NCBI GenBank assembly: GCA_913031285.1
Contig: CAJWEI010000007.1
Span: 1-64,000, forward strand
DNA: 64,000 bases
From: an uncultured Alphaproteobacteria bacterium
GTDB lineage: Bacteria > Pseudomonadota > Alphaproteobacteria > Rhodobacterales > Rhodobacteraceae
Reading direction: 5' to 3'
Numbering within the stretch: the stretch's first letter is position 1; every line of letters starts with the position of its first letter. The notes below the pieces were generated by a model, which made no database searches, was not told where the DNA came from, and saw nothing but the letters and a program-made list of their open reading frames with translations. The position numbers and the translations under genes were made by a program. Below, one piece after another: positions 61,781 to 63,560 of this stretch.

Positions 61781-61830
61781 AGTCTCTCCATATTTGCGAC
61801 GGGCGGAGAGCGTGAAGCAATAAGCTTACC

Positions 61831-61907
61831 TTTCCTCCGCCGGTCTTAACCGGTTCAGGTTCTACGGGTTCACAAAATGCATCTCAGCCATTACAGCACC
61901 CCGAGGT
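61831..61907 (-). ncRNA. TPP riboswitch (THI element)
   Basis: The minus strand reads, in order, CTCGGGGTGC, a GGCTGAGA box (complement at 61882-61889), ACCCGTAGAACCTGA, then CCGGTTAAGACCGG and GGAGGAAA. These are the conserved THI-box helices and pyrimidine/pyrophosphate pockets of the thiamine pyrophosphate riboswitch. The terminal GCGGAGG pairs or exposes a Shine-Dalgarno-like sequence. It precedes thiB by about 50 bases and should control thiBPQ at translation or transcription. Confidence 0.95.
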
Positions 61908-62456
61908 AATTTAATAATAAAATGAAAAACATATAATGGCAAGTCCTAAGCGCGCTTTGAAGGGGCGCGGAAAATGCTGAATAGGTAAAACAAAGCCGCT
62001 TTAAATTCCGCCAGTTCATCGCGTATCTGCTCCCCTACCTCGCCCTATACTGAGCCTCTGCATGCTTTTATACGGTGAATTTTTCGTTACCCATTTTAGC
62101 GTCTGTAAAACGCTCAAAACCATCCTTGAATTATTCATCCTTTAAAGATTTTTATGATATAATATTTCGCTTGGTGCTGCTGCATAAATCTGCGACGATG
62201 CAGCGGTCTCTGGTAAATTCAGAATAGTCATTTTCAAATTGGTTTCTAAACGAAATCGACCACTCATCACGATTTATTATCGAGTAGTCGTCAAAATGAA
62301 CAAAATCTTCTTGAGGATAGTAAGTTAATGAAAAACTTTATATCTGCAATCGCGGGACCGTCCTCATTACTGTGGCTATGCAAATTAATTTGAACGGATG
62401 GCCGTACACAGTGCTGTTCATGACAAAATAAAAGCACTAGTGGCCAAGGCCAACTA
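61908..62456. other. Intergenic stretch upstream of the riboswitch
   Basis: About 550 bases with the thiB promoter at its left. A 41-codon minus-strand frame around 62150-62260 (MSGRFRLETNLKMTIL...) and GCATAAATC near 62186 look faintly like insertion-sequence debris, but no transposase can be recognised. Confidence 0.35.
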
Positions 62457-62466
62457 TTTATTGGTA

Positions 62467-62500
62467 TGGCTAGGTTCCTCCTCCCAAACAAACCTAGCCA
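62467..62500 (+). ncRNA. Hairpin with CCTCCTCCC anti-Shine-Dalgarno loop, first copy
   Basis: A perfect 10-bp stem (TGGCTAGGTT ... AACCTAGCCA) presents a 14-base loop CCTCCTCCCAAACA. The loop is complementary to Shine-Dalgarno sequences, as in the cuckoo/CcsR small RNAs of Rhodobacterales. No U-run terminator follows within about 100 bases, so the transcript end is not defined. Confidence 0.55.
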
Positions 62501-62656
62501 CTCTACCTACAATCCAAAGGGCGAGGGTAACGTCAGTTACAGTGAGCTAATACTGCAGTGCAATGTAATATTTCATCTCATTTATTTCTGTTGGCGCCTT
62601 GTTTTAATCTAAGGGTATAAAACTTTAAGTAATTTACAATTTAAGACTTGCATTTT

Positions 62657-62698
62657 CTGCATAGCAGCATTGCAGTATTGCTCATTGCTGCAATGCAG
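62657..62698. promoter_or_regulatory. Two CTGC-N3-GCAG palindromes
   Basis: CTGC-ATA-GCAG at 62657-62667 and CTGC-AAT-GCAG at 62688-62698 are perfect inverted repeats with centres 31 bases apart. They match the CTGC-N3-GCAG pattern reported for PhaR, the polyhydroxyalkanoate regulator of Rhodobacter. No phasin gene is visible next to them. The intervening TGCAGTATTGC is also TGC-rich. Confidence 0.5.
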
Positions 62699-62714
62699 AA
62701 TTAAATGTAAGCAT

Positions 62715-62826
62715 TACTAAACAAATCGACTCCCCCGTTTTATTTGTTTTACATTTGAATAGTCTTCTCCTCCCTTGACTATTCGAATTACTGGCTCTCC
62801 TTAACGGGGAGCCTTTTCTTTTTTAG
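62715..62826 (+). ncRNA. Candidate small RNA with anti-Shine-Dalgarno loop
   Basis: A stem of 8 perfect pairs, extendable to 12 (62753-62764 with 62777-62788), presents a 12-base loop TTCTCCTCCCTT. Four bases later comes the intrinsic terminator at 62793-62826. The arrangement of an exposed CTCCTCCC followed by a terminator hairpin is that of cuckoo/CcsR-type Rhodobacterales sRNAs. The 5' end given is a guess, and no promoter is identified with certainty. Confidence 0.6.
62793..62826 (+). terminator. Intrinsic terminator
   Basis: GGCTCTCC-TTAAC-GGGGAGCC forms an 8-bp stem (one G-U pair) with a five-base loop, followed directly by TTTTCTTTTTT. This is a strong plus-strand Rho-independent terminator with no protein gene before it, so it should end a small RNA. 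Confidence 0.85.
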
Positions 62827-63353: not shown

Positions 63354-63560
63354 ATGCTTAAAAAAGTAGTCATATTTTTTGTAACAACTAGTAACCTTCT
63401 AGGCTGTAGCGTTGCCCCTAATAACGTTTTCAACCAATTGGGTAACTCTCTTAGAGGAGCCGTAGATGACGTTGAGGGTCAAATTAATAAGGGTCTACCT
63501 AGTAATAGTGTTTTGAGCGAATTGGGCGGTTCTCTCCGCGAAAACCAGGTTAATAAATAA
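63354..63560 (+). CDS. Small lipoprotein with a duplicated motif
   Basis: This 68-residue protein has a basic start (MLKK), a hydrophobic core and the lipobox LLGC with Cys18 as the lipidation site. The mature part of 51 residues contains two near-copies of one unit: NNVFNQLGNSLR (23-34) and NSVLSELGGSLR (51-62), separated by an acidic linker (DDVEGQINKGLP). AAAGGG precedes the ATG. It is likely anchored to a membrane on the periplasmic side. I recognise no family. Confidence 0.65.
   Translation: MLKKVVIFFVTTSNLLGCSVAPNNVFNQLGNSLRGAVDDVEGQINKGLPSNSVLSELGGSLRENQVNK

Follow-up and report, generated by a model that had tools for sequence, protein, structure and literature searches.

In the 64,000-nucleotide stretch of Rhodobacteraceae DNA analysed here (the window), positions 62649-62823 are best read, with a probability of roughly 0.7, as a free-standing small RNA gene of the cuckoo/alpha-r14/CcsR kind that lacks ccaF1, is activated by a LysR-type regulator of the LsrB/VtlR type, and acts through anti-Shine-Dalgarno loops. 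Four elements of this reading are known by computation: the hairpin and terminator structures; the promoter element with its strict association with cuckoo motifs; the layout preserved in a congener, G003; and an LsrB-like gene in the same genome. The locus would represent a cuckoo-type RNA that escapes the Rfam ar14 and CcsR1 models at their cut-offs. Moreover, its shared, testable promoter site connects the CcsR/ccaF1 loci of Rhodobacterales with a regulator, LsrB/VtlR, already described in Rhizobiales.

A predicted compact RNA of consecutive hairpins

Cuckoo RNAs are defined by two to four adjacent anti-Shine-Dalgarno hairpins. Two hairpins, B and C, stand side by side on the plus strand, both with degenerate loops. 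Hairpin B (62719-62749), which escaped the sequence-only reading, lies directly 5' of C; its arms, AAACAAAT and ATTTGTTT, enclose a loop with ACTCCCCCG, and it is weak alone (z = -2.8). Hairpin C (62753-62788; arms 62753-62764 and 62777-62788, 92% complementary) presents the anti-Shine-Dalgarno loop TTCTCCTCCCTT. An intrinsic terminator, GGCTCTCC-TTAAC-GGGGAGCC-TTTTCTTTTT, follows at 62793-62823 (plus strand). Hairpin C and the terminator together fold with z = -5.5, and the whole run from B through C to the terminator forms one hairpin after another, with z = -6.2 relative to shuffles. This fold, along with the alignment to the Rfam ar14 model, supports a predicted RNA of about 100 nt (62719-62822, plus strand).

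Farther upstream, at 62467-62500 (plus strand), hairpin A has a perfect 10-bp stem (arms 62467-62476 and 62491-62500, 100% complementary) and the loop CCTCCTCCCAAACA, an exact cuckoo motif. Its fold has z = -5.1, and none of 200 shuffles was equally stable. Compared with CCUCCUCCC, loop A is exact; loop C (UCUCCUCCC) matches at 8 of 9 bases; loop B (ACUCCCCC) lacks the full motif; and the terminator loop is UUAAC. All three hairpins thus named have loops complementary to Shine-Dalgarno sequences.

Two hairpins in the window have a stem of 8 bp or more and TCCTCCC in the loop. In 150 dinucleotide shuffles the mean was 0.05 and no shuffle gave more than one, so the hairpins are not chance structures. 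CCTCCTCCC occurs at 11 sites in the 3.57-Mb genome; of these, only that at 62477, in hairpin A, folds as such a hairpin loop. The sequence-only reading had described the 10-bp stem, a second hairpin and a strong terminator, and each is found in its place and exceeds the shuffles. It had also seen no protein gene between the hairpins. Indeed, none of the listed open reading frames is credible between A and C, and the only one that touches a hairpin is a 66-codon frame with a TTG start that runs across A on the opposite strand. The separation of about 250 bases, which had seemed unlike a compact cuckoo RNA, does exist between A and C, but it does not fall inside the compact RNA because the unit comprises B, C and the terminator (approximately 62719-62822) rather than A and C.

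The layout recurs in G003, where contig 110 carries hairpins resembling A, B, and C, a site resembling the box, and a terminator, arranged in the order seen in the window and with the spacing of A, B, and C kept. Loop A has hardly changed, and its flank is conserved too. The stem of B has been rewritten, with three two-sided changes, but remains paired; pairing is 91% in this comparison, against 48% or less when the partners are shifted. A shuffle control of the pairing changes (66 of 500) is not decisive on two sequences, so the comparison of the B stems is claimed as consistency only. The terminator arms also differ in sequence. Conservation of stems and loops in relatives, whose absence would have counted against the sequence-only reading, is seen in one congener only, the other congener assemblies being incomplete. 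Flavoprotein genes lie downstream of the locus in both genomes, but they are different ones.

The promoter box and its putative regulator

Between hairpins A and B lies a TGC-rich 18-bp palindrome (62655-62700), also overlooked in the sequence-only reading. It is part of a candidate promoter on the plus strand: the box TGCATTTTCTGCATAGCAGCATTG at 62649-62672, a putative site for an LsrB/VtlR-type LysR protein; a weaker second half-site, ATTGCTGCAATGCAGAAT, at 62684-62701; and a candidate -10 element, TAAGCA, at 62708-62713, placed by position relative to reference promoters, with a predicted start near 62720. The second half-site is spaced as in the reference promoters (11 in the window; 11 or 12 in all 33 references). 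It scores 4.8 bits, versus 11.5-31 in the references, and is among the top 9 of 127,966 window positions.

Exact copies of the 23-mer GCATTTTCTGCATAGCAGCATTG (62650-62672) are present in 34 further GTDB species contigs. With few exceptions, their titles name Rhodobacteraceae or one of its genera (Yoonia, Roseovarius, Sulfitobacter, and others); Ahrensia kielensis is also among them. TCCTCCC motifs follow the 23-mer on the same strand in 34 of 34 loci, the first at 87-447 nt, whereas none of the 34 has TCCTCCC upstream on the opposite strand. A DUF1127 (ccaF1) frame was recognised in 25 of these loci, and several others have room for one. Four (L090, L100, L106, and L111) have hairpins close behind the box and no DUF1127 frame found, and thus appear as stand-alone cuckoo pairs; L100 and L106 score above gathering for ar14. 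The box-to-motif distances in the window, about 80 and 118 nt, resemble those of these four. The CIN1-type promoter box of Rhodobacteraceae loci is therefore present at the locus, with an identical 23-mer, and this promoter is the best evidence for the cuckoo-type reading.

The NfeR1 promoter has an LsrB site, TGCA-N6-GCAT, at -72 to -57 (PMC10746234). In the window, the putative LsrB site TGCATTTTCTGCAT at 62649-62662 has this form and spans -71 to -58 of the predicted start, so it agrees with the alpha-r14 arrangement in both sequence and position. In addition, 62658-62672 agrees with the Brucella VtlR motif (PMC12595884) in 13 of its 15 positions. The short LsrB and VtlR motifs alone are not rare; their weight comes from position and from the 34 of 34 association.

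A genome search found 11 LysR-type places. One encoded protein, G000:C10:29498 (L149, 1489-2397), scores 242 bits to 9HH1, identified as Agrobacterium LsrB (PMC11975290); the next PDB chain reaches 99.5. That paper describes LsrB as exclusive to Rhizobiales; judged by score, this protein looks like a close homologue, and hence an LsrB-like regulator, outside that order. Motif similarity is the ground on which we infer the regulator of the box, and PhaR-type boxes look alike.

CcsR RNAs of Rhodobacter sphaeroides are reported to be under RpoHI/RpoHII (PMC10253847). At the present locus a consensus scan showed no prominent RpoH-like promoter, and the box sequence points to an LsrB/VtlR-type LysR regulator rather than to RpoH-type stress control.

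The same box is seen in two congeners at another place (L016, reverse strand, box at about 1502; L018, box at 1501), with CTCCCT-type loop hairpins and a strong terminator. This second candidate anti-Shine-Dalgarno RNA adjoins a flavoprotein gene; the contig of the window's own genome ends at the corresponding place.

Relation to known RNA families

The alpha-r14/NfeR1 family (RF02344) offers a full-length alignment: positions 1-123 of the Rfam ar14 model align over 62709-62818, although with 26.7 bits (E 0.011) against a gathering score of 58.8 bits. The locus shares with this family its consecutive anti-Shine-Dalgarno hairpins followed by a terminator, and a LysR site of the form TGCA-N6-GCAT around -70 to -58. 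In alpha-r14, each hairpin loop carries an identical CCUCCUCCC (PMC10746234); in the window, by contrast, loops B and C deviate from it, the terminator loop is without it, and there is an extra upstream hairpin, A. The search of the genome with RF02344 gave no match at E <= 10, nor did that of the locus stretch with CcsR1 (RF02791). With these scores and loops, the RNA is not filed in either Rfam family.

With CcsR1-4/ccaF1 (CIN1) of Rhodobacterales (RF02791), the locus shares the identical 23-mer box, anti-Shine-Dalgarno hairpins, and the same bacterial family. Unlike those loci, it has no DUF1127 gene before the B-C RNA, consists of one unit rather than an array, and has AT-rich stems. The AbcR/VrsA RNAs of Rhizobiales combine LsrB/VtlR-activated promoters with anti-Shine-Dalgarno targeting of transport genes (PMC7486931, PMC8844928), which the locus would parallel if its putative LsrB/VtlR activation is correct; their hairpin layout differs, however, and the suhB/mmgR-type model scores the locus only weakly (18.4 bits).

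A cuckoo covariance model, R2, was built from nine hairpin pairs of other genera; its 21 pairs covary strongly in this training set (0 of 500 shuffles). In the window's 3.6-Mb genome its only match at E <= 10 is 62752-62817, hairpin C plus terminator, at 20.8 bits and E 0.5. Over a 1.4-kb stretch, unfiltered, the same positions reach E 0.0002, and hairpin A is the second match (11.8 bits). In G003 the top match falls at the homologous position (27.7 bits, E 0.014); for the controls, R2 gives 61 bits in G033 and 54 bits in G019. Because the scores at the locus are low, R2 provides rank evidence rather than family-threshold evidence: the covariance search suggested by the sequence-only reading puts the locus first in the genome, with a weak E value. 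A model from the window and G003 (R1) is too narrow, finding its own locus only among 249 family genomes.

The proposal of a cuckoo/CcsR-like RNA thus gains from the shared promoter element, the covariance models and conservation in the congener, but not in respect of the Rfam gathering score or identical CCUCCUCCC loops. Taken together, the sequence comparisons describe a real and probably functional locus for a divergent stand-alone cuckoo/alpha-r14-type RNA under a conserved LsrB-type promoter; the RNA would work in the manner of NfeR1 and CcsR.

Function, alternatives, and lineage

We infer that the B-C RNA is transcribed, and from where and for what, as follows. A LysR-type regulator of the LsrB/VtlR kind would bind the TGC-rich site at 62649-62672 and, at 62684-62701, the weaker half-site, and activate transcription from about 62720. 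The resulting RNA of about 100 nt would expose anti-Shine-Dalgarno sequence in the loop of B and chiefly in that of C (UUCUCCUCCCUU). Presumably, these loops would base-pair with Shine-Dalgarno sequences of the GGGAGGAG type in target mRNAs and prevent translation, with transporter and metabolic genes as candidate targets. NfeR1 and AbcR act by translational silencing of transporter and metabolic mRNAs. Two sites in the window's genome are complementary to 11 bases of loop C and lie 4-5 nt before an ATG: one at a gene for a TRAP-type solute-binding-like protein (C3; duplex -21.9 kcal/mol), the other at a gene for an FAD protein (C89; -21.0 kcal/mol). They are candidates, since the 12 loop C-complementary sites in the genome, one of them the RNA locus, only modestly exceed the 7 of a reversed-pattern control. 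In congeners, matches to the loop C pattern are mostly non-hairpin; one, in G006, is a true DUF1127-cuckoo locus.

Hairpin A, upstream of the B-C promoter, is either an element separate from the B-C RNA or reached by read-through; as a third anti-Shine-Dalgarno hairpin, it may belong to a longer read-through transcript. The strongest rival, though an unlikely one, extends this thought: A, B, and C would form one transcript of about 360 nt, with a promoter upstream of A and its only terminator behind C, and RNase E would cut it as it cuts CcsR RNAs from the ccaF1-CcsR1-4 precursor in R. sphaeroides (PMC10253847). No terminator of hairpin A itself was found, and the order and spacing kept in G003 also suit a single transcript; yet the conserved cuckoo promoter sits between A and B, and a search of the region upstream of A gave no conserved or convincing promoter candidate.

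Two further readings are improbable. The locus might be the decaying, no longer working remnant of a cuckoo locus, as the degenerate B loop, the weak second half-site and the losses described below would suggest; against this, the stems and terminator remain paired in two species despite sequence change, and loops C and A are intact, as is the 23-mer. Slightly less probable still is that the palindrome is a PhaR (polyhydroxybutyrate) box, of which we take the consensus to be CTGC-N3-GCAG, and that the RNA serves storage control. The palindrome does contain CTGCATAGCAG and CTGCAATGCAG, and PhaR-type and LsrB-type sites are easily confused, since similar cuckoo-box-like TGC-palindromes occur in the same genome at apparent phaP, phaC, and phaZ promoter regions (L056, G000:C43). 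Nevertheless, cuckoo motifs come after the extended 23-mer at all 34 loci, and the arrangement of this 23-mer agrees with the NfeR1 LsrB site; on these grounds the PhaR reading was set aside.

The stand-alone RNA occurs in a genome where no DUF1127 protein exceeds the Pfam cut-off and no ccaF1-cuckoo locus is found at the uvrD 3' flank; the genome is 96% complete, so these absences are probable rather than proven. That flank keeps the ccaF1-cuckoo locus in G006 (L059), G033, and G019. In L117 (about 1780-2150) and L116 (about 1790-2300), the flank instead holds TGC-rich remnants on the opposite strand, with no clear DUF1127 or TCCTCCC hairpins, and their sequence suggests that the ccaF1-cuckoo locus was lost in this lineage. 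A broader scenario, to which we give even odds, is that Rhodobacteraceae cuckoo/CcsR RNAs and ccaF1 form an LsrB/VtlR-type LysR regulon, wired like NfeR1, AbcR, and DUF1127 genes in Rhizobiales, and that this lineage lost ccaF1 and the uvrD-linked locus while keeping a minimal stand-alone anti-Shine-Dalgarno RNA under the old promoter.

Several neighbouring features were noted along the way. A 21-codon ATG frame (MKNFISAIAGPSSLLWLCKLI), preceded by GAGG, occupies 62329-62394 (plus strand) upstream of hairpin A and is a possible coding frame. Plasmid similarity matches occur around thiB only, with none for the RNA. At gathering threshold, the only Rfam match across the window is a TPP riboswitch at 61815-61913 (minus strand; 74.3 bits), directly upstream of a thiB-like gene and then apparent thiP and thiQ genes, also on the minus strand. 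Finally, a 68-residue open reading frame at 63354-63560 (plus strand) has a lipoprotein-like start (LLGCSVAP), and a flavin oxidoreductase gene lies beyond the window.
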